Of a DNA stretch of 64,000 nucleotides, positions 28,380 to 45,749 are shown in pieces. Under the pieces are notes generated by a model. It saw only the letters and a program-made list of their open reading frames with translations, was not told the origin of the DNA and made no database searches. Every line of letters starts with the position of its first letter. The first letter of the stretch is position 1. The stretch spans positions 124,001-188,000 of the forward strand of contig NZ_QFZQ01000007.1 in assembly GCF_003171675.1 (NCBI RefSeq), read 5' to 3'. The position numbers and the translations under genes were made by a program. Origin of the DNA: Reichenbachiella versicolor. Its GTDB lineage: Bacteria; Bacteroidota; Bacteroidia; Cytophagales; Cyclobacteriaceae.

Positions 28380-28478
28380 AATGGACAGATATTAGAAGTC
28401 AGGCTCGCATCTCCAACGAAATATCTAAAGATCAAGTTCTAGTTATTGAAAGGAATAGTATGACTAAAGCAAAGAGAA

Positions 28479-29234: not shown

Positions 29235-29593
29235 GTTATACGTTGACTTTTATTGATTGGTAATCGATTAAGTATTCATTGAATTCCTAACGTTCATATG
29301 CTAGGCAGTCTTACAATTGTAGACAAAATTGATAAGGCTTTTGAAAAAATAGAGAAATTCCAACCACTTAAATAGGTAAATCCCCTAAAACTTAAAACCC
29401 AACACTATCTACAAACCCTGTTCAGAGGCTAAAAATGGCATTTCATTGAATTTTCCATATTGACACAGCGATATTGTAGCCGATATCCCTATTTCTATAA
29501 ATACGGAAATCCTGTATTCTATTAAATAATGGATTACTTCAACTTTGGAAAACTAAACTCGAATATCCATTTGTCATAACACTTGAACGAAAT
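29235..29593. other. Divergent intergenic region between terC-like gene and SiaC-like gene
   Basis: About 360 bases, AT-rich, with no convincing gene. A perfect 10-base palindrome TACAATTGTA lies at 29312-29321 upstream of the TerC gene. No -7 element matching TAnnTTTG exactly was found for the rightward gene. Confidence 0.4.
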
Positions 29594-30010: not shown

Positions 30011-30041
30011 AAACAATCGAAATACATTAAACGATTAAAAT

Positions 30042-30149
30042 ATGAAACCAAAATTTAGACCTTCGAAAAAAACAGTTACACAGATTGCTCTTGGAGCATT
30101 TTTAACTTACGGTTTTGTGTTAGCATGCACGCTTCTTAGCGTGGTTTAG
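30042..30149 (+). CDS. Possible 35-residue membrane peptide
   Basis: Short frame with ATG at 30042 and TAG at 30147-30149. It has a basic N-terminus (MKPKFRPSKKTVTQ) followed by one hydrophobic segment of about 20 residues (IALGAFLTYGFVLACTLLSV). The A-rich sequence before the ATG is typical of Bacteroidota starts. The arrangement (positive head, single helix, 31 bases behind the SiaC-like gene, terminator at 30266) looks like a genuine small protein, but no homologue is known to me. Confidence 0.5.
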   Translation: MKPKFRPSKKTVTQIALGAFLTYGFVLACTLLSVV

Positions 30150-30265
30150 TTAGGTCTTCTCTATTTATATGATAAGGCATTAAGTAGACGCTCTGAGGTA
30201 GTGGTTTTAATCAGTGTGTCTCAGCCAGCTATGGAATCATTATAATTATGAGATGACTTTATCAC

Positions 30266-30298
30266 AAGGTCTTGGCTTAATTGTCAAGACCTTTTTTT
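30266..30298 (+). terminator. Intrinsic terminator after the SiaC-like gene and small ORF
   Basis: Perfect 9-bp stem AAGGTCTTG/CAAGACCTT with a 10-base loop, followed by a run of seven T. It closes the short transcription unit 29594-30149; about 115 bases of apparently noncoding RNA lie between the small ORF and the hairpin. Confidence 0.88.
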
Positions 30299-30408
30299 AT
30301 TTTTAGGATACTTTGGCTCATTTATTGCTAGTAATCACAGACGCATAACCCATCCCTTTATTATTACAATCTTAGCTCACCGAGCTAAACAATAAATTGG
30401 TACCAGAC

Positions 30409-32841
30409 ATGAAGCTGAAAGCTCTAATTACAATCATTATCATTTCATCTAGTATTCACCTATCCGCTCAAAATAAATACGAAATCGGTGGTCAAATCTT
30501 TGATGAAATGGCTATGCCGGTACCCTTTGCCAATGTAGGCTTTTTCCTTGCTGGAGAGACTGTTCCTGTGGGAGGTTGTGCATCCGATTTTGACGGCTTT
30601 TTCAAGTTCGATCTTGAACCAGGACTTTATAACATTCAAATTTCTTTTATAGGATATAAGACGTTTCACTTAGACTCGGTACAGGTGAGTACTGACGCTA
30701 CTCTACCCTCTATACAAATAGAACCTGATGCACAAAAGCTCAAAAATGTAGTGATACAATCAGAAAGACCTACTATTCAAACCACTCCTGGGGTCAAAAC
30801 TTATAATGTAACAGAAACTGCTGCTTCAGAATCTTCAAACGCACTAGACGTGCTAAAAAACATTCCTTCCGCCAATGTAGACGCGGACGATCAAATTACC
30901 ATGAGAGGAAGAAAAGTCACTATTATGATAGATGGAGTGGAAACCAATATTGAAAATATATTGGAACAAATACCCGCTGATCAAATAGAAAGTATTGATG
31001 TCATCAACAACCCTTCGGCTAAATACGACACTCAAAATGGAGAGGGGGTACTGAACATCAAACTTAAAAAAAGTAAGAAAACTGGATTCAGTGCCTATAC
31101 TGGGATGAGAATCGGCAACGATGGAATGTACAATCCATCAGCAGGCGGATCATATACCAAAGGCAAATTTTCAGTAAGTGGCGGCGCCAATCTCAATTGG
31201 AATATTTTTAAAGACAATGGATCTAGTTACAGAACAAGCTATAGAGTAACTGACACATTAGTCTCTGGTCTTGACACTACGTATATCAGAGAGCCTAATT
31301 CTTTTCAAGATCAAGATTTTGCTAGCCATGATGACCAGTTCAAACAAAACTATAGACTCAAAGGAAGGTATCAATTAAATGATCAGAGTAACGTAGAGTT
31401 GAACTTAAACGGAGGCCTTGGAAGCTATGATAAGCTTAGAGAATATCATCAAGACTTCTTCAGCAAAGACACCGTCTTAACCAGGATGTCAGACAGGGAA
31501 AGAAAAGGAACTTATGATAGCTATTGGTACAAAGTCAGTGCGCAATACAAATGGAAAGAATATGAAGGTCATGAATTCCGAGCTAGAGTAGACTTCTACG
31601 AAGGAGACAGGCAAGACAATTATACTTTTCTAGATTCTTTGTTTACAGCCGAAGGAGAATTTAATCGAGTAAATAGACTCGATCTGATAGAGGATGGTAA
31701 CAATGAGAAAAACTTCAGATCTAAAATAGACTATGAAAAACCCCTTTCAGGAGGTCACAGCTATGAAATAGGAGCTAGTATGAGTCTGCGATCGGTCATC
31801 AGAGACTACCAATACTCAAGAATAGACAGAGATGACATGATCACTTGGTTAAAAGATACTGCTCGGTCCAACGTCTACGACTATGATGATCAAAACTACA
31901 GTGTCTATGTATTAGTCAAAGGTCCGACCGTATTCGTTGATAAATTGACCTATTCGGCAGGGCTTAGATTCAACACCGCATTACTCAGTCCTAAGTCAAG
32001 AACTGATACTGTAGACAACTCTTCAGATCATTATTATTGGTCTCCTTCGTTTCAGTTAGCATATGAGATCAATGACTCGCAAACCTTGTCCTTCAATTAC
32101 TCTACGAAAACAAAATTGCCCTCCTACTATAGACTTAACCCGTTCATTACCTACTATGGCCCTACTCGTGTATTCTATGGAAATGCACAATTGAAACCTG
32201 AAGAAATCAACACTTTTGATCTCTCTTATGACATTTCATTATTAGATGATAAGTTATTTTTAGGCGCGAGCACATATTATAAATCCATCTCTAACATCAC
32301 TATCAGATACAGATTCGATAGTGAAGATGAAGATGGTAATAGCATCGTCAATCAAACATTTCGAAATGTGAATAGTGGCGAAACATACGGCTTTGAAATA
32401 ATAGAAACTTGGAAAGTAATTAAACCTCTAAAAATAAAATCCAGCTTCAACTGGTACACTGCTACTTTCGCTACTTTCTCAGAGACTTACAATAGAATAG
32501 TCACCCGAAACGGAACTAATTACAACTTCAAAACCAGTACCGATTTAGAAATAAACAAGAAGCTATCTACTCAACTTTCTTTCAATTATTTCAGTACCAG
32601 AGTAACTGCTCAAGGATACTATGAGCCTAATTACTTCATGAATTTCTCTGCTAGACAAAAACTACTCAAAGATGACCGATTGAGTCTAAGTTTCAGATGG
32701 ACAGATGTGCTTCAATCATGGAACAGAGATCGAGTAGTCGATCAAGAAGACTCATATTCCTCGACAAGTGAATACTCTAGAAACCAAAGTAGGTATTCGA
32801 TCACTGCTAGGTATAGCATCAATAAAATGAAGTTCAGTTAA
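30409..32841 (+). CDS. TonB-dependent receptor-like outer membrane protein (carboxypeptidase-regulatory domain, OMP beta-barrel)
   Basis: About 810 residues. I start it at the ATG at 30409, which begins the signal peptide MKLKALITIIIISSSIHLSA; an in-frame TTG lies 12 bases upstream. Order: a CarboxypepD_reg-like Ig fold (~25-105), a plug domain (TTPGVKTYNVTETAA..., VTIMIDGVETNIENILEQIPADQIESIDVINNPSAKYD), then a long beta barrel of the OMP_b-brl_3 type. No SusD partner is adjacent, so the substrate is unknown. A 42-bp tandem array begins 20 bases after the stop. Confidence 0.88.
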   Translation: MKLKALITIIIISSSIHLSAQNKYEIGGQIFDEMAMPVPFANVGFFLAGETVPVGGCASDFDGFFKFDLEPGLYNIQISFIGYKTFHLDSVQVSTDATLPSIQIEPDAQKLKNVVIQSERPTIQTTPGVKTYNVTETAASESSNALDVLKNIPSANVDADDQITMRGRKVTIMIDGVETNIENILEQIPADQIESIDVINNPSAKYDTQNGEGVLNIKLKKSKKTGFSAYTGMRIGNDGMYNPSAGGSYTKGKFSVSGGANLNWNIFKDNGSSYRTSYRVTDTLVSGLDTTYIREPNSFQDQDFASHDDQFKQNYRLKGRYQLNDQSNVELNLNGGLGSYDKLREYHQDFFSKDTVLTRMSDRERKGTYDSYWYKVSAQYKWKEYEGHEFRARVDFYEGDRQDNYTFLDSLFTAEGEFNRVNRLDLIEDGNNEKNFRSKIDYEKPLSGGHSYEIGASMSLRSVIRDYQYSRIDRDDMITWLKDTARSNVYDYDDQNYSVYVLVKGPTVFVDKLTYSAGLRFNTALLSPKSRTDTVDNSSDHYYWSPSFQLAYEINDSQTLSFNYSTKTKLPSYYRLNPFITYYGPTRVFYGNAQLKPEEINTFDLSYDISLLDDKLFLGASTYYKSISNITIRYRFDSEDEDGNSIVNQTFRNVNSGETYGFEIIETWKVIKPLKIKSSFNWYTATFATFSETYNRIVTRNGTNYNFKTSTDLEINKKLSTQLSFNYFSTRVTAQGYYEPNYFMNFSARQKLLKDDRLSLSFRWTDVLQSWNRDRVVDQEDSYSSTSEYSRNQSRYSITARYSINKMKFS

Positions 32842-32860
32842 ATAAAATTTCATTCCGAAC

Positions 32861-33112
32861 TGGTCGGCTGTCATTCGGGTATGGTCGTGGATCGATAGGG
32901 CATGGTCGGCAGTCTTTCGGGCATGGTCGTGAATCGTTAGGGCGTGGTCGGCGGTCATTCGGGCATGGTCGTGGATCGTTAGGGCATGGTCGGCAGTCAT
33001 TCGGGCATGGTCGCGGATCATTAGGGCGTGGTCGGCAGTCATTCGGGCATGGTCGTGGATCATTAGGGCGTGGTCGGCAGTCATTCGGGTATGGTCGTGG
33101 ATCATTTGGGCA
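32861..33112. repeat. Intergenic tandem array A: 6 x 42 bp, each unit two 21-bp modules
   Basis: Twelve consecutive 21-bp modules without a single length change. Modules alternate: odd ones begin TGGTCGGCAGTCATTCGG and even ones TGGTCGTGGATC(A/G)TTAGG, both ending GGC(A/G) or a close variant. The two types are about 76% identical, so a 21-bp ancestor duplicated and the 42-bp pair then amplified. The array starts 20 bases after the receptor stop and ends 108 bases before glyS. The period is a multiple of three, so open frames cross it on the minus strand; they have no start context or domain. Confidence 0.95.
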
Positions 33113-33187
33113 ATACCTCCTACTTACTTTTTCGATTAAGAGTCAAAGTACATCAGATAAGATAATCTATATAACTGTCAATATCCT

Positions 33188-33216
33188 TTTGCATATTTTC
33201 CGTTCGTATATCTTTG
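33188..33216 (+). promoter_or_regulatory. Promoter of glyS
   Basis: TTTG at 33188-33191 and TATCTTTG at 33209-33216 (17-base spacer) match the Bacteroidota -33/-7 pattern. The -7 box ends only 4 bases before the glyS ATG (33221), so the predicted transcript is leaderless or nearly so. Confidence 0.65.
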
Positions 33217-33220
33217 CGCC

Positions 33221-34768
33221 ATGGCAAAAAATGACGATCAGAATCTATTGAAGAAAATCGTATCTCACGCTAAAGAGTACGGTTATGTGTTCCCATCTAG
33301 TGAAATATATGACGGGCTGAGTGCGACCTATGACTATGGTCAGTATGGCGTAGAGTTGAAGAACAATATCCGAAACTATTGGTGGAAAGCCATGGTGCAG
33401 ATGAATGAAAACATCGTAGGTATCGATGCTGCCATCTTTATGCATCCTACCACTTGGAAGGCTTCTGGACACGTAGATGCTTTCAATGACCCGATGATCG
33501 ACAACAAAGACTCCAAAAAAAGATATAGAGCTGATGTATTGATCGAAGAGCATATCGCTAAAATCGAAGCTAAAATCGACAAAGAAGTGGCTAAGGCTGC
33601 TAAGAGATTTGGTGATGATTTTGATGAGGCTCAGTTCAAAGCTACCAACCCAAGAGTTCTTCAGAATCAAGAGAAAATTGATGCCATCAATGAGCGATTC
33701 GCTAAAGATATGGCGGAGGAGAATTTTGAAGATCTAAAACTTCTAATCGAAGAATTGGGTATAGCTGACCCTGTAAGTGGGTCTAAGAACTGGACTGAAG
33801 TTCGTCAGTTCAACTTAATGTTCAGCACTGAACTTGGTTCTTTAGCGGATGGTGCTAGTAAAATCTACTTAAGACCAGAGACGGCTCAGGGTATATTCGT
33901 GAACTACCTGAATGTACAGAAGACTGGTCGTATGAAGCTTCCTTTCGGAATCGCTCAGACGGGTAAGGCTTTTAGAAACGAAATCATCGCTCGCCAGTTT
34001 ATCTTCCGTATGAGAGAGTTTGAGCAAATGGAGATGCAATTCTTCATCAAGCCTGGTACAGAGATGGAGTGGTATGAAAACTGGAAAAACAAGCGTATCA
34101 ACTGGCACAAGTCTCTGGGAATGGGTGAGGAAAATTATAGATTTCATGATCACTTAAACCTTGCTCACTATGCCAACGCGGCGTGTGATATCGAGTTCAA
34201 CTTCCCAATGGGTTTCAAGGAACTGGAAGGAATTCACTCAAGAACTGATTTTGACCTGAAGGCTCACGAAGAACATAGTGGTAAGAAACTTCAGTTCTTC
34301 GATAATGAAACTGATGAATCGTATGTTCCTTATGTGGTAGAAACTTCTATTGGTTTGGATAGAATGTTCCTAGCGGTATTGTCTAGTTCATATGAAGAAG
34401 AAACTTTAGAGGATGGTAGTTCGAGAACTGTATTGAAGATCCCTTCAGTATTAGCTCCAGTAAAAGCTGCTGTACTTCCTTTGGTCAATAAAGATGGTCT
34501 TCCTGAGAAAGCAAGAGAGATTTTGGATGAGTTGAAATTCTCTGTGAATGCTCAGTACGATGGTAAGGATGCCATAGGCAGAAGATATAGAAGACAAGAT
34601 GCGATCGGTACTCCGTATTGTATTACTGTTGATCATCAAACGCTAGAAGACGGAACTGTCACGATTCGTGAAAGGGATTCTATGGAACAAAAAAGAGTCT
34701 CTATAGATGAGGTGGTAAAAGAAATCGAAGCTGCAGTGGACTTGAAGCCGTTGCTGAAATCTTTATAA
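33221..34768 (+). CDS. glyS: Glycine--tRNA ligase, alpha2 dimer type
   Basis: Class II aminoacyl-tRNA synthetase that charges tRNA-Gly, 515 residues. It starts with the conserved KKIVSHAKEYGYVFPSSEIYDGLSATYDYGQYGVELK. Motif 2 region is IARQFIFRMREFEQMEMQFF and motif 3 is YVVETSIGLDRMFLAVL. The C-terminal anticodon-binding domain covers about residues 410-515. This is the single-chain bacterial/eukaryotic-like form, not the alpha2beta2 GlyQ/GlyS form, as usual in Bacteroidota. Confidence 0.97.
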   Translation: MAKNDDQNLLKKIVSHAKEYGYVFPSSEIYDGLSATYDYGQYGVELKNNIRNYWWKAMVQMNENIVGIDAAIFMHPTTWKASGHVDAFNDPMIDNKDSKKRYRADVLIEEHIAKIEAKIDKEVAKAAKRFGDDFDEAQFKATNPRVLQNQEKIDAINERFAKDMAEENFEDLKLLIEELGIADPVSGSKNWTEVRQFNLMFSTELGSLADGASKIYLRPETAQGIFVNYLNVQKTGRMKLPFGIAQTGKAFRNEIIARQFIFRMREFEQMEMQFFIKPGTEMEWYENWKNKRINWHKSLGMGEENYRFHDHLNLAHYANAACDIEFNFPMGFKELEGIHSRTDFDLKAHEEHSGKKLQFFDNETDESYVPYVVETSIGLDRMFLAVLSSSYEEETLEDGSSRTVLKIPSVLAPVKAAVLPLVNKDGLPEKAREILDELKFSVNAQYDGKDAIGRRYRRQDAIGTPYCITVDHQTLEDGTVTIRERDSMEQKRVSIDEVVKEIEAAVDLKPLLKSL

Positions 34769-34893
34769 TTCGTAAATTGTCCAATGAAGCTCCTCGAACT
34801 TAGGGTACGGGGCATCAGGTTTTATTTAAGCTCGCCCCAAGGGTCAGAAATCAACCCAATGGGCTGTCGCGCTGCGATTGAATTAATTAGCCA

Positions 34894-35535
34894 ATGGACT
34901 TTATACTAATCATCGGACTGGCTCTTTTCCTTTTTGGGATAGGGCTTATCTCTCCGAAACTCTGGAATCTCTTTTCTATCTGGAAGCGAACTTCCTCTAT
35001 GGGGCTCAAACTAGATGGGAAAGAGATTTTTTCTTTGACCAAATTCTATGAATTAGAAAACTGGTTTTTGGAAGCTTGCCAATCGTTCAAAGAACTCAAT
35101 CCTAAAATATCAGTAGTCGATATTGTTCGCCATCACATGGCGGATGGAGATACTTTGGCTTTTCTGGATAAGTACAGAGGCTTAGTAGAAAAACAGGCTG
35201 ATATCAGTTTTCAAGATGCCTTGATGCTAGACTTATCTGGAAAAAATGTCAATGCTGACAACCCTGAAACGGATCTAAGACTGGCTCTTGAGTTTACAAT
35301 AGATAATTATCGATTCAACTATCTCGGACTCATTAAAATCAAATCCACCAGCCGAAATTGGGTCAATACCCAACATGATGCTATCCAAGGCAAAATATCT
35401 TCAGCGATCAAAACTTGGATGACTGTAAACGGAGAACCTACGTCTGAAGCGATTCTTGAAAAAGTATTAAATGATAGTTTTTGGCAAACTACCTGTCATG
35501 GAACTATCAAGAACCAAACAATAAATATCAATTGA
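34894..35535 (+). CDS. Conserved-type hypothetical membrane-anchored protein
   Basis: 213 residues that I do not recognise. One N-terminal transmembrane helix (about residues 3-22) is followed by a short basic stretch and a soluble domain of mixed helix/strand. There is no lipobox and no catalytic motif. Its TGA stop overlaps the probable TTG start of the M90 peptidase gene, suggesting translational coupling and a shared role. Confidence 0.7.
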   Translation: MDFILIIGLALFLFGIGLISPKLWNLFSIWKRTSSMGLKLDGKEIFSLTKFYELENWFLEACQSFKELNPKISVVDIVRHHMADGDTLAFLDKYRGLVEKQADISFQDALMLDLSGKNVNADNPETDLRLALEFTIDNYRFNYLGLIKIKSTSRNWVNTQHDAIQGKISSAIKTWMTVNGEPTSEAILEKVLNDSFWQTTCHGTIKNQTININ

Positions 35536-36368
35536 CTTTACTACATTCCTTCTTATTGGAGATACAATCTTCTCACTCATCTGACGTCAGAGATGGTGCT
35601 TTATTTGCTTTGATCTCATTTTTATTAATATTCATATTAGCTGCAAGTGGCCGAGTACAAATGGGATTCGTAGTGCCAGGTTTTCCTACCCCATTACGAA
35701 GAAGCAGAAAGAAAATTCTGTCAGAGTATTTCCCATTTTATAAAAACCTTCCTTCAGACCAGCAGAAAGTATTTGGTCAACGTGTCCAAGCTATTATTCT
35801 TTCGAAGACTTTTTATGGAAGAGGTGTAAAAGTAGATGAGGTGATGAGGGTTTTGATTTCAGCATGCGCGGTACAGCTGACCTTTGGACTTCCTAAAATA
35901 ATGCTGTCGCATTTCACACGAATCATCATCTACCCAAATGATTACTATTCTACCATCAATAAACAATATCACAAGGGTGAAATCAACCCTAGACTGAAAG
36001 CTATTGTGCTTTCTTGGCATCACTTCCTAGATGGGTACGTCAAAAAGAATGACGGTATTAACCTTGGTCTTCACGAAATGGCTCATGCGCTTCATTTAGA
36101 AAATATTATATCTAATGATGAATATAACTTCCTAGACCAAGGAGCTCTGGCTCAATGGCGAAAGGCTGCTTCGGAGGAAATGATGAGAATCAATAGTGAC
36201 CCCAGCCACCTATTTAGATCTTACGCAAGTGTCAATGAGCATGAGTTTTTTGCTATCGCTGTGGAGAACTTCTTCGAAAGAAGTGAACAATTCAATGCGC
36301 AATTACCACACCTCTATCACTTGATGACGCTAATTTTGAGGCAAAACCCATTAAGTAATTCTCTTTAA
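35532..36368 (+). CDS. M90 (MtfA-like) zinc-dependent peptidase
   Basis: Predicted metallopeptidase with one transmembrane helix near the N-terminus (DGALFALISFLLIFILAASG). The zinc site is LHEMAHALHLE (HExxH), followed by NEHEFFAIAVENFFE with the downstream acidic residues typical of MtfA. In E. coli MtfA acts on Mlc in glucose signalling; that link is not evident here. I place the start at TTG 35532 because it overlaps the upstream stop (TTGA); another in-frame TTG at 35481 would overlap the previous gene by 55 bases. The start is uncertain. Confidence 0.8.
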   Translation: MTLLHSFLLEIQSSHSSDVRDGALFALISFLLIFILAASGRVQMGFVVPGFPTPLRRSRKKILSEYFPFYKNLPSDQQKVFGQRVQAIILSKTFYGRGVKVDEVMRVLISACAVQLTFGLPKIMLSHFTRIIIYPNDYYSTINKQYHKGEINPRLKAIVLSWHHFLDGYVKKNDGINLGLHEMAHALHLENIISNDEYNFLDQGALAQWRKAASEEMMRINSDPSHLFRSYASVNEHEFFAIAVENFFERSEQFNAQLPHLYHLMTLILRQNPLSNSL

Positions 36369-36369
36369 G

Positions 36370-36690
36370 ATGGCGAAGAAAAATCCACATCCTGCTAGCG
36401 TTAGAAATAAACACACTGCCTCCGTCAAGGATGTCATAGATGCTATGCTCAAGTCATACAACTTAGAGAAGCGATTTGATCAAGCCAATATATCCACTGC
36501 TTGGGAAAAGATTATGGGTTCGGCTATAGCCAATAGAACGGATCATATAGAAATGCGAGATAGTGTATTGATAGTCAAACTAAATTCTGCCCCCCTCAAA
36601 CAAGAACTAAACGCTGCCAAGCATAAAGTGATAGAACTGATCACCAAAGAATTTGGGAGACGAGTGGTGAAAGATGTGCTGTTTATTTAG
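36370..36690 (+). CDS. DUF721 / DciA-like protein
   Basis: 106 residues. The DUF721 core is NISTAWEKIMGSAIANRTDHIEMRDSVLIVKLNSAPLKQELNAAK. DciA proteins of this family load the replicative helicase in bacteria lacking DnaC, so a role in replication initiation is plausible. It begins 1 base after the M90 gene stop and ends in a 4-base overlap with the convergent gene 36687-38102. Confidence 0.82.
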   Translation: MAKKNPHPASVRNKHTASVKDVIDAMLKSYNLEKRFDQANISTAWEKIMGSAIANRTDHIEMRDSVLIVKLNSAPLKQELNAAKHKVIELITKEFGRRVVKDVLFI

Positions 36691-38102
36691 TCTTTGACCT
36701 CGTTTTTAGCAAACTGTTTGAGTTCTTTCGACATGCTCTGAGCTAACTGTCTAGCCGCATCACCGATCAATTTAGGTGTAGAAGATGGTTTAGTCTTGGC
36801 GTCGTCCATAGCTCGTTTATCTCCTGATAGAAATACATACCACTCGGTAGTCCAAGATTCTTTATCACTAAGTTCTCTTGCCCAAACTACACGGCCACCT
36901 TTGGCTACTAATCGGTATTTTACCGCTGCCGAAGCTTTTACTGTCTTTACTTTTTTCTTGGACTTAGCTGTTACTTCTTTCTTCACATCTCGTTTTTTCT
37001 CCTTACCATCCTCATCTTTATAAGTTTCTTGTCCTACTACTACTTCTCTAGAGAAAACCTTTTCGCCACTATCTTCAGTAATGGAAGATGTTCTACAGGC
37101 TCCCAATTTGCCAGTAAGAACATAGTCCGCATTTCTGATTTGATCTAGATCTCCAGAACTCATATCGAATTTTGATTCATTCAAACTGGCTGTAGTATTT
37201 GATTTCTTGCTATCGGATATATTGAGTGAATTGACCAAACCACGAGCCAGTGCATAAGTCACATCTGTCGCTGCATTCTTTTCATACCCTCTCACCTCTA
37301 TGAATTCTATATTTTCTTTTCTCAGCTGAGAAGTAATCAATCGGGTCATTTCATTGACTGATTCCGCATCGCACTTATCTCCTCCAGACTCTATAGGCAT
37401 CACACCTATGCTCACTGTGCCTCTCTGTACTGCTTGCTCGTATAGTCCATCTGCGTCTTTGTAATTTTGAACATAGCCTTGCGCGTATGCAAATCTCCTT
37501 GCAGCTCTTCTATTCGCTTGCTTATTATCAGGGCCAATATTGAAGTGAGATAGACCTTCCTTGTAGTGCATCTCTGCCGCTTTTCTCTTTCCTTTCTCAA
37601 ATGCCACCAAAGCTCGATTGACCTCTGAACTGTATGGCTCTGCTATCTGAATCTCTACTTTAGCATCTTTTTTCTTGACAGGTGTGAATTTAGAAGCAGG
37701 CAGTTTTCTCAGTACTTTGTTGTACTTATTCATGGCTACGTACATGTTGTAGATTTCTGCTTGTTTGGTTACTGTTCCATCGCCTTTGAACTCAGCAGTA
37801 GCGACTTTATGCTCATCTATTTTTCTCAAATTACTCTCTACCTGAGCAGTATAGTAGGTTCTCAACACCTCTTGAGCATTGGATATGTCTTTCTTTTTAG
37901 AAGCTATTTCCAGTGCATATGAGGCACACAATAGGGCATTGTCAATTCTATTTTTCTTTCTTTCTTTCTTGGCTTGAGAGTTATAATAAGAAGGTTTCTT
38001 ATCTCCTTTAGGCTCAAAATCTACAATTTTGAAATTGGGCTGAGCATGCGCTAATACAATTGATCCAAGAAAAAGTACTACGGTAAAAAGAAAATTTGAC
38101 AT
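36687..38102 (-). CDS. Secreted/periplasmic protein with TPR-like and CsgG-like parts, function unknown
   Basis: 471 residues with a signal peptide (cleavage near residue 20, AHA-QP). The N-terminal half is helical and TPR-like with many Lys/Ala. Residues ~230-300 (TVSIGVMPIESGGDKCDAESVNEMTRLI..., then YVLTGKLGAC) resemble the CsgG/TolB-like fold that builds an adenine-pocket-like beta-alpha unit. Residues ~350-390 are an unusually Lys/Asp/Glu-rich insert. No catalytic motif is visible. It is the only minus-strand gene between glyS and zur. Its 3' end overlaps the DciA-like gene by 4 bases. Confidence 0.65.
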   Translation of the reverse strand: MSNFLFTVVLFLGSIVLAHAQPNFKIVDFEPKGDKKPSYYNSQAKKERKKNRIDNALLCASYALEIASKKKDISNAQEVLRTYYTAQVESNLRKIDEHKVATAEFKGDGTVTKQAEIYNMYVAMNKYNKVLRKLPASKFTPVKKKDAKVEIQIAEPYSSEVNRALVAFEKGKRKAAEMHYKEGLSHFNIGPDNKQANRRAARRFAYAQGYVQNYKDADGLYEQAVQRGTVSIGVMPIESGGDKCDAESVNEMTRLITSQLRKENIEFIEVRGYEKNAATDVTYALARGLVNSLNISDSKKSNTTASLNESKFDMSSGDLDQIRNADYVLTGKLGACRTSSITEDSGEKVFSREVVVGQETYKDEDGKEKKRDVKKEVTAKSKKKVKTVKASAAVKYRLVAKGGRVVWARELSDKESWTTEWYVFLSGDKRAMDDAKTKPSSTPKLIGDAARQLAQSMSKELKQFAKNEVKD

Positions 38103-38212
38103 GCTATTAGCGTCTGATGAATTACTAAAATACCGAATCGCAGGGAAACTTCAGAATAGGCAGATACTTGACAAATGTTTATACCACAGATTTTAATGAA
38201 AGAACCTATCGT

Positions 38213-38587
38213 TTAACTAGAACATTGGGCACAAACTCCTGAGACTACATGAAGTGAATCTTTTACTTGATAACCGTCTGGTAAATCTACTTGCGGCTTG
38301 ACTGTATCTAAGCAAAAGACCTTATTACAAGACTCACAACTAAAATGAACATGATTATGAGAATGTTCATGATCTCCACAATGATGACAAGCCGCAAAGC
38401 GCATCACTCCATCAAAGTCAATCACCTTATGCACTCGGCCTTCATTGACAAGTCTATCCAAAACACGATAAACTGTCACTCTATCACATAAATCCTTGAG
38501 CTGAGTCTGAATATCCTTATGGCTCAATGCTCCTTCAGACTGTTCTAGCAGCTCCACTATAGCTGTTTTACTTTTAGAGTTTCTCAT
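38213..38587 (-). CDS. Fur-family metalloregulator, probably zinc-responsive (Zur)
   Basis: 124 residues from the ATG at 38587. A longer frame starts at 38647 but would run through both operator palindromes, so the shorter start is preferred. The winged helix covers ~1-70 (SHKDIQTQL...DRVTVYRVLDRLVNEGRVHK). The metal sites include CHHCGDHEHSHNHVHFSCESC and the terminal CAQC, giving the two Cys pairs of the structural zinc site and a His-rich hinge. Divergent to it lie a His-rich lipoprotein and a TonB receptor, which argues for Zur rather than Fur. It probably represses itself and them. Confidence 0.85.
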   Translation of the reverse strand: MRNSKSKTAIVELLEQSEGALSHKDIQTQLKDLCDRVTVYRVLDRLVNEGRVHKVIDFDGVMRFAACHHCGDHEHSHNHVHFSCESCNKVFCLDTVKPQVDLPDGYQVKDSLHVVSGVCAQCSS

Positions 38588-38593
38588 TTTTAT

Positions 38594-38608
38594 CGCAACT
38601 GTATTGCA
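38594..38608. promoter_or_regulatory. Putative Zur operator 1
   Basis: CGCAAC-TGT-ATTGCA, a 6-3-6 palindrome with 5 of 6 arm positions matching operator 2. It lies 7 bases before the regulator's start codon. Centre-to-centre distance to operator 2 is 38 bases. Confidence 0.65.
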
Positions 38609-38631
38609 TTTAATATTTGAAAGACGATCTT

Positions 38632-38646
38632 TGCAACTTTGTTGCA
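38632..38646. promoter_or_regulatory. Putative Zur operator 2
   Basis: Perfect palindrome TGCAAC-TTT-GTTGCA in the divergent region, 30 bases before the His-rich lipoprotein start. Both operators are followed on the right by the same bases (TTTAAT), so they are a duplicated element. Confidence 0.75.
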
Positions 38647-38675
38647 TTTAATGTTTCCAATACACTAAAATACAT

Positions 38676-39317
38676 ATGAATATGAAAATATTTAATAAAT
38701 CACTACTTGTAGCCGCTTTGGCTGCCTCAGTAATGTTCACTTCTTGTGATGAGGAAGAAACCGAAATTCCAAATGAAAATGAACTCATTACTACTGTGAT
38801 TCTTGAGTTATATGATGAGTCAAATCCAAATAACGAAGTTCATTTACATTGGGAAGATATAGACTTGGATGGTAAACCGGAAATAGAGACTGAAGCTCTA
38901 GCTGCCAACACTACTTATCATGGTCATATTGAATTTTTGAATGAACTTGCTGAAAAAGATGAAGATGATCATGACGATGAGGATGGTCATAATCACAGAA
39001 CGCTAGAAGATGATCACGATCATGACCACGAACATGATCATGGCTATGATGTAACTGAGACGATAGAAAAAGAAGATGAGGATCACCAAGTATTCTATGT
39101 AGTTGACCCTGCAGACCTTGCTACTATCGAGTATGAGGATGAGGATGGAAATGGAATGCCTTTAGGTCTTGAAATAGAACTGACTACTGGCGATGCTGGT
39201 ACTGGTACCCTCAACATTGTTTTGAAGCATGAGCCTACTAAATCAAAGGATGCCACTTTGGAAACTGCTGGTGGATCTACTGATATAGATGTAAAGTTTG
39301 ACATTACCGTAGAATAA
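38676..39317 (+). CDS. His/Asp/Glu-rich lipoprotein, probable surface zinc-binding protein
   Basis: 213 residues. Signal peptide with lipobox FTSC (Cys24) followed by an acidic DEEE stretch, similar to the export signal that places Bacteroidota lipoproteins on the cell surface. Residues ~96-123 form a dense His/Asp run (DDHDDEDGHNH..., DHDHDHEHDHG) expected to bind several zinc or copper ions. The rest looks like beta sandwich. It lies behind the Zur operators and 6 bases before a TonB receptor, so it is probably a zinc-capture partner of that receptor. Confidence 0.8.
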   Translation: MNMKIFNKSLLVAALAASVMFTSCDEEETEIPNENELITTVILELYDESNPNNEVHLHWEDIDLDGKPEIETEALAANTTYHGHIEFLNELAEKDEDDHDDEDGHNHRTLEDDHDHDHEHDHGYDVTETIEKEDEDHQVFYVVDPADLATIEYEDEDGNGMPLGLEIELTTGDAGTGTLNIVLKHEPTKSKDATLETAGGSTDIDVKFDITVE

Positions 39318-39323
39318 GCTTAA

Positions 39324-41639
39324 GTGCGAACATTTTTTTTTGTATTAATATTTCTGGCTTCATCCTATGGGTGGAGCCAGAATTGTAATATTACCTATCA
39401 AGGTCAAATTCTTGACCAAATGTCAGGACTTCCTAAGTGCTATGCTTCGATTATGATTTTAGAATCTAGTCAAGGTATGATCACAGATTCTTTGGGAAGA
39501 TTTGAATTTAAAAATATCTGTCCTGGTCAATATCATATAAAGGTTACTCATGTAGGTTTTACTCCAGAAAACTTATACGTAGACCTTCAAGAAAACAGTA
39601 ACCAAACCATCTCTCTTGATCGCAATGATGAGTTATTAGATGAAATTCTAGTACATGGTGAGACAGTAGAGTCATTGACAAAAGTCAGTAATGTACTTTC
39701 ACAAGAGAAAATTCTATTCGAAGCCAATAACAACTTAGCAGATCTCGCAGCAGTAATCAGTGGAGTAAATGTAGTAAAAAACGGCCCTGGTGTTTCAAAA
39801 CCAGTAATACATGGCTTGTATGGTAATAGGGTCACTATCCTCAATAATGGCATCAAACAAGCAGGTCAAAGATGGGGAAATGACCACGCTCCTGAGATAG
39901 ATTTATTTGTAGCAGATCATCTAGCTGTGATAAAAGGTGTCGCAGGACTTGAGATTAGTGGCGGCTCTCTTGGTGGAGTACTTGAGATACACCCTGGTCC
40001 AATAGCGAATGACCCTCACCTTCATGGTGATGTTAATTATATTTTTCAGTCCAATGGACTAGGTCATACGCTGAATAGTAAAATTCAAAAAGGAAATGAC
40101 ATCGATCAATGGAGAATCGTCGGTACCGCTAAACTAATTGGTGATGCTAAAGCTCCTGGCTATTTTCTGACCAATACTGGTCGAAGAGAATCAAACTTCG
40201 CGGGACAGTGGAATCATTCAATGTCTAAGAAATGGAAAATCAATTCCTATTACAGTTTCTTTCATACGGATATAGGAATACTCAAAGGGTCACACATCTC
40301 TAATACGAGAGACCTTAAATCGGCACTTACAGTCAAAGAACCATTCAATAATGACGATAACTTTAGTTACAAACTGGAATCACCAAGACAGAGTGTAAAC
40401 CATCACCTTCTTCTTCTAGAAAGTAATCATAGTCTCTCCGAGACTAGCCAACTCAGTCTAAAATACGCTGGTCAATTAAATCGAAGAAATGAATTCGATG
40501 TCAGAAGAGGTGGTGAATCTAATACACCTGCTGTAAGTATGTCCCTTAATTCTCAATATCTAGAAGCTACTTTAGCCAAAGACGTTAATGTTAACTTAAG
40601 TTATCGAGCAGGGTTGCAATACAACTACCTGATCAACAAGAATCATAATGGAACGACCGGTAGGCTACCTCTAATACCTGACTATAATTCACAAATCCCT
40701 GGGGCGTTTTTAACTTTTCAAAGAAGCTATCTTAAAAGCATTTTAGAGTTTGGCTTGAGGTATGACTTGGTCACACAAAACGTCAGAAATATAGAAAGAA
40801 ATGATATTGGCAACCTTGAGGTATACAAATACAACAATCTAGCTCATAATTTTTCTGTAGCTGCGGGAGTGAGTAGAGACTGGAATACGAATTTCACTAG
40901 CAAATTAAACATTGGTTTTGCACAAAGGGCTCCTGAAGTAAATGAGCTCTATAGTGATGGAGTACATCAAGGGGTAGCTAGCTATGAAAAAGGAGACCCA
41001 GATCTAACAGCCGAACATTCGGTCAAAGCTATTCTTTCGAATGATTACACTATTGGACGTAAATTATTTCTTCAAACAGTATTCTATGGTCAGTACTTTA
41101 AAGATTACATTTATCTCAAACCAGCAAATGACACTACAACTATTAGAGGTACTTTCTGGAAATTTGATTACGATCAGACTGACGCACTGTTATTAGGTGC
41201 TGATTTTAACTTTAGTTACACACTCTCTCATCACTACAAACTAGACTTTGGATATGCTCATTTGTATGCTCAAGATCTGGTCAATAATATTCCATTGGTA
41301 TTCATGCCTTCCAATGCCCTTACAGGACGGCTTACATATACAATTGATGATCAAGGAGTATTAAAGAACAATAGTGTATCGCTAGGGGGAAAATATGTAT
41401 TGGAAAGAGACATTATTCCTCAAGTAGAACAAGAAGAGCTATCACCTCCTCCTCCGTCGTATGTGCTTATTAACATTAGTGCTAGCACAAGTATTCTTAT
41501 AAATAAGTCTATAATCAATATTAGTTTCAAAGTTGAGAATTTATTGAATACAGAATATCGTGATTATCTGGATAGGTTAAGGTATTTTGCAGACGCATCG
41601 GGAATCAATGCGGTGCTAACACTTAACTATAAATTCTAA
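39324..41639 (+). CDS. TonB-dependent receptor, probable zinc uptake (ZnuD-like role)
   Basis: 771 residues with a GTG start and a signal peptide (MRTFFFVLIFLASSYGWSQ). Order: CarboxypepD_reg-like domain (~22-105), plug domain (ISGVNVVKNGPGVSKPVIHGLYGNRVTILNNGIKQAGQRWGNDHAPEID), then a 22-strand-type barrel ending in the aromatic residue F (LTLNYKF). HDHAPEID-type plugs occur in zinc/copper receptors. Being in one unit with the His-rich lipoprotein and divergent to zur makes zinc the likely substrate; this is inference. Confidence 0.85.
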   Translation: MRTFFFVLIFLASSYGWSQNCNITYQGQILDQMSGLPKCYASIMILESSQGMITDSLGRFEFKNICPGQYHIKVTHVGFTPENLYVDLQENSNQTISLDRNDELLDEILVHGETVESLTKVSNVLSQEKILFEANNNLADLAAVISGVNVVKNGPGVSKPVIHGLYGNRVTILNNGIKQAGQRWGNDHAPEIDLFVADHLAVIKGVAGLEISGGSLGGVLEIHPGPIANDPHLHGDVNYIFQSNGLGHTLNSKIQKGNDIDQWRIVGTAKLIGDAKAPGYFLTNTGRRESNFAGQWNHSMSKKWKINSYYSFFHTDIGILKGSHISNTRDLKSALTVKEPFNNDDNFSYKLESPRQSVNHHLLLLESNHSLSETSQLSLKYAGQLNRRNEFDVRRGGESNTPAVSMSLNSQYLEATLAKDVNVNLSYRAGLQYNYLINKNHNGTTGRLPLIPDYNSQIPGAFLTFQRSYLKSILEFGLRYDLVTQNVRNIERNDIGNLEVYKYNNLAHNFSVAAGVSRDWNTNFTSKLNIGFAQRAPEVNELYSDGVHQGVASYEKGDPDLTAEHSVKAILSNDYTIGRKLFLQTVFYGQYFKDYIYLKPANDTTTIRGTFWKFDYDQTDALLLGADFNFSYTLSHHYKLDFGYAHLYAQDLVNNIPLVFMPSNALTGRLTYTIDDQGVLKNNSVSLGGKYVLERDIIPQVEQEELSPPPPSYVLINISASTSILINKSIINISFKVENLLNTEYRDYLDRLRYFADASGINAVLTLNYKF

Positions 41640-41644
41640 TAAAC

Positions 41645-42232
41645 ATGAATCCAGTACTAAATCGAAACTTGTTCTTCGTAAAAGAACACGTGGGGATGTT
41701 CAAAGCATCTAACAACTACAACATCCATGATCCAGAAAACCAAGAAGTGATCATGGAATGTAGAGAACCTAATCTAGGAGTCTTCACCAAAATCTTTCGA
41801 TTCACGGACTACAAAAGAATGACACCATTTGAAGTGGTTCTTACGGACACTCAAGGGAACAAAGTCTTGACCGTGAAAAGAGGTGTTTCTATTTTCTTAT
41901 CTGAAGTTCAGGTATTGGACGAGAATGACCAATTGGTAGGGATGTTCAAGCAGAAATTTTTCTCTATCGGAGGGAAATTCGATATTCTAAACCCTTCAGG
42001 CGAAGTACTATGTCAACTAAAAGGGAAATGGACTAGTTGGGATTTCAAGTTTATCAAAGACAATGTAGAATTCGCTCATGTAAGTAAAAAGTGGGCGGGT
42101 CTTGGTAAAGAAATGTTTACCACTGCCGACAACTACATGTTGGAAATCAATGACCAGGTACCAGCGGACAATCCTATGCGTCAATTGATCTTAGGAGCTG
42201 TGATGGTTATAGACATGGTTCTTAAAGAGTAA
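41645..42232 (+). CDS. Phospholipid scramblase-related (LURP-one fold) protein
   Basis: 195 residues, no signal peptide. Recognisable scramblase/Tubby-like beta barrel: VKEHVGMFKASNNYNIHDPENQEVIMECRE at the start, FDILNPSGEVLCQLKGKWTSWDFKF in the middle, and a C-terminal hydrophobic helix (LILGAVMVIDMVL) that may insert in the membrane. The function in bacteria is unknown; membrane lipid binding is a guess from the fold. It starts 5 bases after the zinc receptor, so it may belong to that operon. Tandem array B lies downstream. Confidence 0.82.
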   Translation: MNPVLNRNLFFVKEHVGMFKASNNYNIHDPENQEVIMECREPNLGVFTKIFRFTDYKRMTPFEVVLTDTQGNKVLTVKRGVSIFLSEVQVLDENDQLVGMFKQKFFSIGGKFDILNPSGEVLCQLKGKWTSWDFKFIKDNVEFAHVSKKWAGLGKEMFTTADNYMLEINDQVPADNPMRQLILGAVMVIDMVLKE

Positions 42233-42380
42233 TCTTTACTCTAAAAAAAGAAATACGAACTTAGTGTATCATTCTTCGCACAAGATTGGATGGTACGCTA
42301 AGCTCTTCAATACTTTATTGCAACCCTGCAATAGAACTCCGTGAAACAATTACCATTCTTAGAAGGTCAGACGTAACGTT

Positions 42381-42737
42381 TGGTTGATCGCATGTAGTCC
42401 TTGGTTGATCAATTGTAACGTCTGGTTGATCACATGTAATCCTTGGTCGATCAATTGTAACGTCTGGTTGATCACATGTAATCCTTGGTCGATCAATTGT
42501 AACGTCTGGTTGGTCACATGTAATCCTTGGTTAATCAGTTGTAACGTCTGGTTGGTCACATGTAATCCTTGGTTAATCAGTTGTAACGTCTGGTTGATCG
42601 CATGTAATCCTTGGTCGATCAATTGTAACGTCTGGTTGATCGCATGTAATCCTTGGTTGATCAGTTGTAACGTCTGGTTGATCACATGTAATCCTTGGTT
42701 AATCAATTGTAACGTCTGGTTGGCCGCATGTAATGAT
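42381..42737. repeat. Intergenic tandem array B: 8 x 42 bp plus a partial unit, built of 21-bp modules
   Basis: Sixteen full 21-bp modules and a degenerate seventeenth. Odd modules read TGGTTGATC(A/G)CATGTAATC-, even ones TGGT(C/T)GATCA(A/G)TTGTAACG-. Neighbouring 42-bp pairs are sometimes identical (42423-42464 and 42465-42506; 42507-42548 and 42549-42590), showing recent local duplication. Most modules contain GATC. It lies between the convergent scramblase-like and YceI-like genes. Open frames cross it on both strands only because 42 is divisible by three. Same architecture as array A, different sequence. Confidence 0.95.
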
Positions 42738-42888
42738 CGTATGGCTAGGCACTAATCCCTTTTTGCATTTTGTTAGAGTTACTCACATTTAGCAATTCAT
42801 CTATCAAAGGGGCATGGAGCAATAGAGAAGCATAAAACTTTCATGAAGCTACCATACTGAATAGCCTCATGAAAACTTTATCATCAGA

Positions 42889-43512
42889 TTACTTAATCAA
42901 TGGCACTGAAAGTACTACATCCACATCTGGCCATAGTTTGGATACTCCATCGTCACCAGTATGTAGTCCCTTACATACCTCATTCAAAGCTGCAATAGCT
43001 GCGCTACCGTTCCAAGTAGTCACATCTACTGCTGTGGTTACAACTAAGGCAGTATCATTGACAGCGTATGTATATGGGGTATTGGCAGACATACCATTCA
43101 TCGTAAATTCAATTTCACCTTTACCATCAGCAGCACTTAAGATCTTTCCTTTAATCTCAGATGTGTTGAATGTGCCAAAAAATGAGGCTTTAATCTTTGG
43201 GTCTCTGATTACATTGTTAGAGTTGACTGTACTTGTTGGAATAGTAATTTTACCACCAGCCAAAATCTCTTCAGCAGTACCACTGATTTTATCAGCTTCT
43301 ATATTCAAAGTATCGAATGTCCCTCCTACTCCAGATCTGGAAGTAAACTTATAGGCTGTCCATTTCAATGAAGCTCCATTGGTCTTTACTTTCAATGACG
43401 GAACGGCTTCTGCAACTGGCTCAGCTATGGTTGTTTCTTTCTTAGCGCTTTTACTACAAGACATTACTACAACTGCCAAAACGGCAAATAATAAGGTTTT
43501 GAAAATATTCAT
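42889..43512 (-). CDS. YceI-family lipoprotein
   Basis: 207 residues with lipobox VMSC (Cys19). The YceI-type lipocalin barrel is recognisable from SLKWTAYKFTSRSGVGGTFDTLNI, ITIPTSTVNSNNVIRDPKIKASFFGTF and the GKGEIEFTMNGMSANTPYTY segment. YceI proteins bind isoprenoid or other amphipathic lipids in the periplasm; the ligand here is unknown. It is a single gene, convergent with array B and the scramblase-like gene. Confidence 0.85.
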   Translation of the reverse strand: MNIFKTLLFAVLAVVVMSCSKSAKKETTIAEPVAEAVPSLKVKTNGASLKWTAYKFTSRSGVGGTFDTLNIEADKISGTAEEILAGGKITIPTSTVNSNNVIRDPKIKASFFGTFNTSEIKGKILSAADGKGEIEFTMNGMSANTPYTYAVNDTALVVTTAVDVTTWNGSAAIAALNEVCKGLHTGDDGVSKLWPDVDVVLSVPLIK

Positions 43513-43935
43513 GATATATAGATTTATTTAAAGTGCGCCTAAGTTAAAAAACATTCTCAAAGGATCACTGAATCGTTTATCGCGTTTGACAGCCTCCGAC
43601 AGATTAAGTTCAACTAGAGAATTAAAATTCGAAACCATTCAACTCTGAAGATATCACAGTTCTTTAATAAGTAGAGAGCAAAAAAATACCAGCCGGACTC
43701 CTCCGACTGGTAGTACTAACTTTTACTAAATCTATTGTAGTTCTCTAAAACCTTAATCGCAGGGCGTTAGCCCGGTTTGATTGAATTTCCCCGCCCCTTT
43801 TGACTAGATAACTGAAGATAACCAGTACGCTGGATAGGGAGCTTCTTGAAAGATTCGAGATAGAACTCTGGGATAAATGAAGAGCCAAAACCTTGAAAGC
43901 CTAGGTTCTCAATTGGTGGACTTTTGACATGGCTC
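43513..43935. other. Intergenic region with one hairpin
   Basis: About 420 bases between the starts and ends of two minus-strand units. The only clear structure is an inverted repeat at 43688-43713 (TACCAG-CGGA arms, one mismatch, short loop) preceded by seven A residues on the left. Read on the minus strand the A-run becomes a T-run, so it may terminate the ABC operon that ends at 43936. No ORF of note. Confidence 0.5.
43688..43713 (-). terminator. Probable terminator of the nitrate-type ABC operon
   Basis: Arms TACCAG and CTGGTA extended by CGGA/TCCG across one mismatch, loop of about 4 bases. On the minus strand it is followed by at least six T. It lies about 220 bases after the last ATPase gene, farther than usual. 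Confidence 0.55.
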
Positions 43936-44769
43936 TTAGTGATTCAAGAAATTCATTAAATAACCTCTGTAATCATAATAATCTGGATGCTCAAGAATTT
44001 CTTTTCTTACCCTTGGACGTTCGTATGGAATCACAAGCTCATCGCCAATCTTAGCAAAAGGCCCACTGGTCATCATGATCACACGGTCAGCCAAGAATAT
44101 TGACTCATCTACATCGTGAGTAATCGCTATAGCTGTTATCTTTTCCTTTTGCCATACTTCTAATAGCACATCTTGCAGCTCTCCTCTAGTCAAGGAATCT
44201 AGCATACCAAAGGGCTCATCTAGTAGCAATACTTTTGGCTTAAGAGCAAATGCTCTTGCAATACCTACACGCTGCTGCATGCCTTGAGAAAGCTCTAGTG
44301 CTTTCTTATTAAAATCATTGCCTAGACCTACTTTATCTAAGTAGTATTTACAAATATCTAATTTCTCTTGTTTAGAGCCATGAGGAAAGACTTGCTTCAC
44401 TCCTATCAGTACGTTTTCTAATGCTGTCAACCAAGGGAATAAACTTGGAGACTGAAATACTACAGCTCTATCAGGACCTGCTCCATGAATTTGCTCTCCA
44501 TCCACTTTAATCTTACCCGCAGATATGTCATTCAATCCTGCAATCATGGTCAAAAGCGTGGATTTACCACAACCTGAGTGACCAATAATAGAAATGAATT
44601 CACTCTGTTTCACACTAAGCTGAAGATCTGAAAGCACCGTGTAGTCACCTTTTGGTGTAGGATATACTTTGGCTAAATCCTCTATCTTGAGCATGTCAGG
44701 TCTAGTATCTATTTCAGGCAATGAAGCCTTCGATTTTTTCTGAACTAATTCTTTATCTAATACTTCCAT
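43936..44769 (-). CDS. ABC transporter ATP-binding protein, nitrate/sulfonate/bicarbonate type (second ATPase)
   Basis: 277 residues. Walker A GHSGCGKS (63-70), signature LSQGMQQR, Walker B KVLLLDEPFGMLD and the switch His in AITHDVDES. The signature has Gln in place of the first Gly of LSGG, which is common in this subfamily. An N-terminal 25-residue extension precedes the nucleotide-binding domain. It resembles NrtD/SsuB. It is the last gene of the operon, following another ATPase by 41 bases. Confidence 0.9.
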   Translation of the reverse strand: MEVLDKELVQKKSKASLPEIDTRPDMLKIEDLAKVYPTPKGDYTVLSDLQLSVKQSEFISIIGHSGCGKSTLLTMIAGLNDISAGKIKVDGEQIHGAGPDRAVVFQSPSLFPWLTALENVLIGVKQVFPHGSKQEKLDICKYYLDKVGLGNDFNKKALELSQGMQQRVGIARAFALKPKVLLLDEPFGMLDSLTRGELQDVLLEVWQKEKITAIAITHDVDESIFLADRVIMMTSGPFAKIGDELVIPYERPRVRKEILEHPDYYDYRGYLMNFLNH

Positions 44770-44810
44770 AATGTGTGCTTTTTGCTATCAGTATTCACCA
44801 ATAGTTGGGT

Positions 44811-45704
44811 TTAAATGTGTTTTGACCTTTCGTAATCAGTCTCTGAAGGCTTTTTACCCCACTTGATCCACCCTGGCATCACTGGTTTCAGATCCGGAAG
44901 GGTGTACTCGGCATGTTGTTCAGCCTTTCTATTCTCCCCTAGCTCTATCAAATACTCGACGATTTTAGTTCTCAGTTTTTTGTAATTAGGGTCTTGGTTG
45001 ATCTCTGTGATCACCCTTGGTCTAGCAAAATCCACTTTAAACTCTGGCCCGAGCGTTGCATTTGGACCAGGAGTCAATGGAATTATTCTATCTGCCATGA
45101 TGATTCCCTCGTCCACATCATTGGTGATCAGCAGACAAGTTTTCTTGTCCTCACCCCAGATTTTTACGATCTCCTCCTGTAGCGTACCTCTGGTCAATGC
45201 ATCCAATGCAGATAATGGCTCATCCATCAAAAGCATTTTAGGATTCATCGCCAATGCTCTTGCTACTGAGACTCTCTGTCTCATACCTCCTGATAGCTCA
45301 GCAGGACGTTTGTCAATCGCATGTGTCAAATTTACCATCTCCACATACTTGCGGATTTGAGCATCTTTTTCTTTTTTGGAAGCGCTTTTCATTACTTCAT
45401 CGATTGCCAGTTTCACATTGGAGTAAACTGTCAACCACGGAAGAAGAGAATAGTTTTGAAAAACTACACCTCTATCTGGCCCAGGACCTGTGATTGGCTT
45501 ACCGTTTAGCAACACCTCCCCTTCGTCAGGGAAGTGAAGACCATTGATCAAATTGATCAATGTAGTCTTACCACTACCAGTAAATCCAACGATGGCAAGA
45601 AATTCTCCTTCCTCTACTGATAGATTGATGTTCTTCAACACCTCTACCTTATCTTTTCCCGTCCCGTAGGACTTTGATACATTTCTTAATTCTAAAAAAG
45701 CCAT
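44811..45704 (-). CDS. ABC transporter ATP-binding protein, nitrate type (first ATPase)
   Basis: 297 residues. Walker [10 protein letters not shown] (40-48), Q-loop [10 protein letters not shown], signature LSGGMRQR, Walker [13 protein letters not shown] and ITNDVDEGI where the switch His is replaced by Asn. A C-terminal extension of ~50 residues ends the protein, shorter than the binding-protein domain found in cyanobacterial NrtC. With the second ATPase it probably makes a heterodimer, so the missing switch His suggests one degenerate ATP site. Confidence 0.9.
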
Positions 45705-45749
45705 GTCTTCAATATTTTAAAGTTTGAATACTTATCACTGAATTGCCAA

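Follow-up and report, generated by a model that had tools for sequence, protein, structure and literature searches.

Dispersed 21-bp repeat arrays of Reichenbachiella versicolor and hints of a partner protein family

Bacterial minisatellites are usually treated as slippage debris. Repetitive extragenic palindromic sequences and bacterial interspersed mosaic elements (REP/BIME) with their REP-associated tyrosine transposases (RAYT) are species-specific intergenic repeats of alternating subtypes, one set of which lies beside a protein gene and many copies of which are dispersed. Plasmid iterons and parC/parS arrays are direct repeats about two helical turns apart that sit beside the gene of their binding protein. 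Among the Bacteroidota, the minisatellite-bearing miniature inverted-repeat transposable elements (MITEs) of Porphyromonas gingivalis comprise BrickBuilt, with 23-nt units, and MITE464/PgRS, with 41-nt units (PMC4596501). Here we describe two intergenic arrays of 21-bp modules, A and B, in a 64,000-nucleotide stretch (the window) of Reichenbachiella versicolor (contig NZ_QFZQ01000007.1, positions 124,001 to 188,000). Arrays with no detectable relation in sequence have this one period, one sequence class keeps a core while the rest of its module saturates, and members of a protein family neighbour such arrays in two lineages that are far apart within the phylum. The position of an array beside the protein gene in three genomes hints at a DNA-array/protein pairing not described before.

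Our preferred reading, to which we give a probability of roughly 0.4, is that these are dispersed noncoding 21-bp arrays of families with no detectable relation to one another, each the multi-site DNA target of its own cognate protein, and that a family of proteins of 227 to 239 amino acids (aa) is one such partner. Patches conserved at 21-bp intervals would allow the protein to contact a single face of the DNA. The sequences of protein and array would diverge together, and whole module blocks would be copied into new intergenic sites, in some cases distant from the gene. Each of the four proteins found sits beside a different array family. We infer that the protein may bind its array, that this binding may be the function, and that the protein may help the arrays to spread. 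The wider proposal, a new chromosomal system of Bacteroidota in which a fast-diverging protein is paired with its own two-turn-phased, block-dispersed array, and in which period and often alternation are kept while sequence is replaced between lineages, is possible but doubtful.

Direct reading and Tandem Repeats Finder (TRF) agree with the first-pass annotation on the architecture of arrays A and B. Both are intergenic, lie less than 10 kb apart and are made up of modules spaced by exactly 21 bp that alternate between two subtypes, with a match at the 42-bp period of 91% in A and 93% in B. Nearly all modules start with TGGTYG, a few in array B starting with TGGTTA instead. Array B is preceded by a degenerate module that is also present at the 5' end of another array of its class (C20:352k). 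Mononucleotide shuffles of all sampled intergenic regions, those of the window included, gave 0 arrays at the same threshold. The comparison covered the genome of this DNA (G000, 5.25 Mb; C numbers denote its contigs and L numbers sampled loci) and seven congeners (G001 to G007); glyS, the glycyl-tRNA synthetase gene, has R. faecimaris as its best named match (89% identity), and the congeners match it at 89-93%. Three TGGTYG motifs at 21-bp spacing were matched 85 times at 11 places in G000, where the reversed control pattern gave 0 matches. The pattern was found in 0 of 7 congeners and in one of 31 further relatives, G014, in which the reversed control also matches 7 times. The genome scan proposed by the annotation does give more arrays at the same phase: 11 with TGGTYG, three of a class D and others found by sampling.

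By sequence, the 11 TGGTYG arrays fall into seven of class B (array B and six others), two of class A and two of class A'. Classes A and A' are related (profile comparison, p 0.002). The profiles of A and B, compared in all rotations and on both strands, are no more alike than column-shuffled profiles (p 0.671), and the longest stretch common to their consensus sequences measures 5 bases when matched exactly, where the null mean is 5.3 (P 0.84), or 6 bases with C/T tolerated, where it is 7.2 (P 0.95). The earlier idea that even modules of array A are array-B modules with three extra bases is not borne out by these values. Since the likeness of A and B is at chance level, the single dispersed class first proposed has to be divided into two or more sequence families of like architecture; dispersal and architecture are common to both, but by the refuting condition that the annotation itself set they are not demonstrably one family. 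A single intergenic region (L047:5028-5822) contains a class-B array of 25-26 modules and, immediately after it, a class-D array of 12 modules. Another class-B array adjoins a stretch of 42-bp rhythm with GGTTCATGGATAAACC palindromes (L050:5660-5862), which has strong predicted folding on both strands and has related copies at other sampled places.

G000 has at least four further families of 21-bp period (D, E, F and an element found on C18 and C17), with two in G005, at least two in G014 and one in Flavobacterium macrobrachii. The G000 sample of 864 kb, made up of the window and 40 stretches of 20 kb, contained noncoding arrays at periods 21, 26, 40, 41 and 42, together with one microsatellite and one low-complexity row; the same DNA shuffled contained no arrays. 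Two 21-bp arrays and one 41-bp array were found in 200 kb of congener G005 and two 22-bp arrays in G001, with none in G002 and G006 (240 kb together) or in G017, G019, G028 and G033 (100 kb each). In 1.03 Mb of DNA surrounding glyS at 80 Bacteroidota loci, a single clear noncoding array of 21 bp was seen, that of F. macrobrachii; two further rows, at lag 14 or 21, were built on heptamers or rich in purines. Four dispersed arrays of 11-16 modules of 21 bp occur in the F. macrobrachii genome in a sequence of their own, with subtype alternation clear in at least two of the four. Over all samples, a period of 20-22 or 40-42 bp is seen in 14 of 15 families, in bins that were chosen after the data had been seen, or in 13 of 14 if L176 and L177, counted separately despite a common 66-bp stretch, are merged. 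This count leaves out a trinucleotide run (L061), low-complexity repeats of the window at 63.5 kb, a run of N (L288), a purine-rich row at lag 21 (L239), a heptamer-based row at lags 14 and 21 (L257), a 36-lag row of L267, and arrays A and B themselves. Several of the 40-41-bp-unit arrays have internal palindromes. G014, a member of the same family of bacteria (loci L055-L058 and L116), has 21-bp families of its own, TTGGTTGGAGGCTTCCGTGCA and GCGGATGAGTGAATGCCGCGT, and one of these occupies almost the whole of a convergent gap, leaving 18 and 27 bp at its ends.

Class D consists of 36 modules in three arrays of G000. Its TGTTT is conserved at 94-100% per position and its AG at 81-89%, most other columns being at 28-50%, near background. 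Between loci, the core is 97-100% identical in register and the other columns 54-67%. The order of modules is common to the loci: non-core identity peaks at register 0 in all three pairs, with one wide margin (D3-D20, 0.67 versus 0.51) and smaller ones in the pairs with D2 (0.54 versus 0.53 and 0.60 versus 0.53). D3 and D20 agree at 17-21 of 21 bases in each of modules 1-7 but at only 8-13 in modules 8-12, the core still being 97% identical, and the flanks of the loci are unrelated. To judge from these alignments, the pattern fits copying of whole module blocks with selection on the core.

The candidate partner answers the earlier suggestion that a shared trans-acting gene be sought. Four genes of the family were found: two in G000, one in congener G007 and one in F. 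macrobrachii. All four lie about 116-289 bp from a 21-bp array, and each array is of different sequence. The seed gene (P0002) encodes 227 aa and lies 289 bp from the class-B array on C16; its product has no Pfam match above cut-off. Its paralogue in G000 (59% identical) has the class-F array of C18 at a distance of 116 bp. In G007 the homologue (39%) was found by protein similarity alone and has a 21/42-bp array about 117 bp upstream, part of which reads N. The F. macrobrachii member (26% identity; tblastn E 4e-7 over all fetched loci, phmmer 3.5e-11) lies about 163-184 bp, depending on the array start chosen, from the array beside glyS. No homologue was found in G001-G006 at E 0.001. In the gap beside each of the four genes, the strongest of 48 tested lags is either 21 or 42 (P 0.002 each, the lowest value that 500 shuffles allow), and the opposite-side gap, tested for two of the four, shows no such array. 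Background adjacency to such arrays is 0.6-1.6%, namely 8 of 496 genes in G000 (P0003 locus included), 4 of 457 in congeners and 4 of 626 in the phylum sample (P0001 locus included). Three of the four proteins score 38.5, 27.4 and 30.9 bits against NCBIfam NF052641 (PQLLE), the fourth being unmatched and the curated cut-off being 80, so that the three may at most be distant relatives of that family; the name PQLLE gave no match in a full-text literature search. No relatives were found in viral contigs, and tblastn gave no match in phages and plasmids. Matches to known structures or families (a designed pentatricopeptide repeat protein, a circular tendon repeat protein, SMC, Cbp1 and Csx1) were short or sub-threshold and were not used.

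Several observations weigh against a cognate pairing. The search started from P0002, and P0001 came to notice at an array, so the unconditioned evidence comes from two members, P0003 and P0004. Their joint chance is about 0.016 x 0.009, or 1e-4, without correction for the searches made with six flanking proteins. Arrays and proteins are not one-to-one: of the 11 A, A' and B arrays only that on C16 adjoins the gene, which makes one of seven in class B, and neither arrays A and B nor the other A and A' arrays were seen to have a partner gene next to them. G001, with its 22-bp arrays, and G005, with its 21-bp arrays, lack a homologue at E 0.001, nor did the fetched G014 arrays show one. The side of the gene on which the array lies also differs, being downstream in F. 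macrobrachii and upstream in the other three. The F array is degenerate or short, as is what can be seen of the G007 array. No DNA-binding domain was recognised in the protein, and its single-sequence fold is uninformative (mean predicted local distance difference test score 39.5). Finally, class A' lacks the helical-turn signal described below (p 0.95), class A shows it weakly (p 0.25), and over all families it is not large.

The main rival is that these are neutral minisatellites, in which local duplication favours 21- and 40-42-bp units, the arrays grow by slippage and unequal exchange, and ectopic copying moves blocks, with no function and no partner. We hold this to be unlikely, if a serious contender; it would explain A and B taken alone. 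Replication slippage on a seed, raised by the first-pass annotation, is likewise a live rival. Presence of the arrays is lineage-specific, as neutral turnover would have it: no 21-bp array follows the stop codon at three orthologous loci (OxyR, Bcp and a membrane protein before polA) in any of seven congeners, the class-D pattern is in 0 of 38 relatives, and the class-B pattern is in 0 stretches of a genome contig collection, which possibly does not include the present genome. A 22-bp repeat of G001 lies about 1 kb along from one of the three sites. No array is visible by eye within 300 bp at the site orthologous to the class-D array on C3 in all seven congeners, and the glyS locus could not be used for this comparison because the upstream gene differs. 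The many sequences, the lack of a consistent RNA fold and of excess curvature in A and B, and the three of seven class-B arrays whose modules are most alike within their own locus are also in keeping with neutrality. In the other four, however, modules are closer to another locus, and local homogenisation is therefore not general. Nor does neutral decay lead one to expect core-restricted conservation with exact spacing in class D, or an array beside all four homologues found; these two features the neutral account does not explain.

Alternatively, the arrays may be an architectural element independent of any particular protein, a BIME-like platform for a general DNA-organising or topology protein, with gene adjacency as a side effect. 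This would account for one 21-bp period in sequences with no detectable relation and, in some of the families, for a spacing of conserved columns by about one turn. Over 11 families, such columns tend to recur after about 10.5 bp (block-permutation Fisher p 0.005; 2e-6 with the laxer column permutation), a tendency that also counts in favour of the cognate-protein reading. It would also suit the position of six of the 14 A, A', B and D arrays, which is within 20 bp of a stop codon. The first-pass annotation had expected arrays mostly 3' of genes, and 10 of these 14 have a same-sense gene on their 5' side. The expectation is weak all the same: 23 of 24 arrays could be placed (40-, 41- and 26-bp arrays included; one class-E array could not be) and are in 14 tandem, 5 convergent and 4 divergent gaps, as against 60/16/24% of intergenic bases, so there is no clear bias by gene arrangement. 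Intrinsic curvature was rejected as the reason for A and B, which stand at percentiles of about 0.3 against permuted modules with Bolshoy wedge parameters; high values (0.90-1.00) were obtained for one array each of class D and G014 and for the G001 array. The cores, moreover, are family-specific, which a general protein would not need, and we consider this account improbable.

A minisatellite carried inside a MITE and moved by an insertion sequence (IS) transposase, as in BrickBuilt, would likewise produce dispersed copies, and the C18/C17 element is a true dispersed copy of about 460 bp, with an inverted pair of 21-bp-period arms around TTCGCATGCGAA at its centre. CCTC(A) directly precedes four of 14 arrays (three class B, one class D); as RCCTCA occurs at about 3.5e-4 per position in sampled DNA, its recurrence is probably not due to chance, though it was noticed after the fact. 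Yet the 250-bp flanks of 13 arrays have no common leader or tail beyond two 13-mers (blastn, E 0.05), and visual inspection of the 40-bp ends of 14 arrays showed no terminal inverted repeats. We regard transposition of this kind as very improbable. The search for mobile-element enzymes covered Y1 transposases only. PF01797 matches occur in 31 of 39 genomes; the three in G000 are weak (C18:115k and C8 twice), none lies at the 11 arrays, and a RAYT or Y1 transposase was rejected as the partner.

Other known classes were also set aside. A CRISPR array is excluded by modules that abut without spacers and by the lack of a cas gene, by Pfam, in 20 flanking or array open reading frames (ORFs). A conserved RNA hairpin was rejected on fold z-scores of -0.74 for array A, -5.88 for array B and -7.1 to +1.5 over seven B arrays; several arrays, B among them, fold better than shuffles and others do not. 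Rfam at gathering score gave 0 matches in nine array loci and in window positions 28000-48000. A phage or plasmid origin found no match by blastn (array B against phages, A and B against plasmids). ORFs of 115-123 aa run through arrays A and B and, with 21 being a multiple of 3, could suggest translated heptapeptide repeats; but conservation has no codon rhythm at p<0.05 in 11 families (mod-3 p 0.054-0.92), in-frame stops interrupt two of the three class-D arrays, and the class-D phenylalanine codon is always TTT and never TTC. Arrays A and B came out as noncoding in all tests applied. Translation is hardly credible on these grounds, and the long ORFs look like by-products of the 21-bp period.

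Table 1. Location of the arrays, their neighbours and related repeat features (window positions unless a contig or locus is named)
Feature	Location	Strand	Description
Array A	32861..33112	+	12 modules x 21 bp, TGGTCGGCAGTCATTCGGGCA / TGGTCGTGGATCATTAGGGCG alternating; class A; direct reading, TRF
Array B	42381..42737	+	17 modules x 21 bp, TGGTTGATCACATGTAATCCT / TGGTYGATCAATTGTAACGTC alternating; class B; direct reading, TRF
Degenerate leading module of array B	42360..42380	+	starts GAAGGTCAGACGTAACGT; 14/21 bases as in nearest module consensus
TonB-dependent outer-membrane receptor gene	30397..32841	+	Pfam PF14905/PF00593; stop codon 19 bp before array A
Glycyl-tRNA synthetase gene	33221..34768	+	Pfam PF00587/PF03129; 108 bp downstream of array A
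Scramblase/LURP-one-like protein gene	41645..42232	+	Pfam PF03803; upstream of array B
YceI-like protein gene	42889..43512	-	Pfam PF04264; convergent, downstream of array B
ORFs through arrays	32752-33105, 42359-42706	-	weak Pfam matches such as Alanine_zipper and Laminin_II
ORF through array	42384-42755	+	no Pfam match
Other class-A array	G000 C17:130.8k		
Class-A' arrays	G000 C2:871.8k and C18:398k		
Dispersed element, ~460 bp	L075:5583-6044 and L187:10401-10862 (G000 C18, C17)		91% identical between the two loci
Noncoding 40-41-bp-unit arrays	L065:9012-9278, L186:15176-15358, L176:8375-8640, L177:10395-10616 (G000); L098:5922-6131 (G005)		
26-bp array family with GCATATATGC	L063:1151-1331 and L073:12161-12336		sole sampled family outside the 21/42 rhythm

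If the pairing is true, it would provide a testable system of DNA array and protein that could serve chromosome organisation, regulation or selfish spread. Full-text literature searches gave no recognised report of alternating 21-bp arrays in Bacteroidota, the nearest being BrickBuilt. In their alternating intergenic repeats, with a set beside a protein gene and dispersed copies, the arrays resemble REP/BIME-RAYT in logic and not in parts, as they have no Y1 transposase beside them, no consistent hairpin, and modules in head-to-tail 21-bp tandem. With iterons and parC/parS arrays they have in common two-turn direct repeats adjoining the gene of a protein, here a candidate binding partner; unlike these, they are chromosomal and have many dispersed copies, and none of the flanking proteins examined was recognised as a Rep or partition protein. 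BrickBuilt and PgRS are also dispersed intergenic tandem arrays of Bacteroidota with units of about two or four turns, a lineage-specific sequence and partly conserved module positions, and the 41-nt units of PgRS match in size the 40-41-bp-unit arrays of G000 and G005 (PMC4596501). BrickBuilt has a leader, a tail and IS5-like terminal inverted repeats of its own (PMC4596501); the arrays described here have unrelated flanks, a period of 21, alternating subtypes in A and B, and several coexisting families together with a candidate partner gene. The tandem repeats of archaeal Borgs are similarly lineage-specific, of fast turnover and also intergenic, with some units of 20-21 nt; Borg units are perfect repeats that occur in genes too, whereas the arrays of R. 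versicolor are degenerate and hold to one dominant period (PMC9879509).

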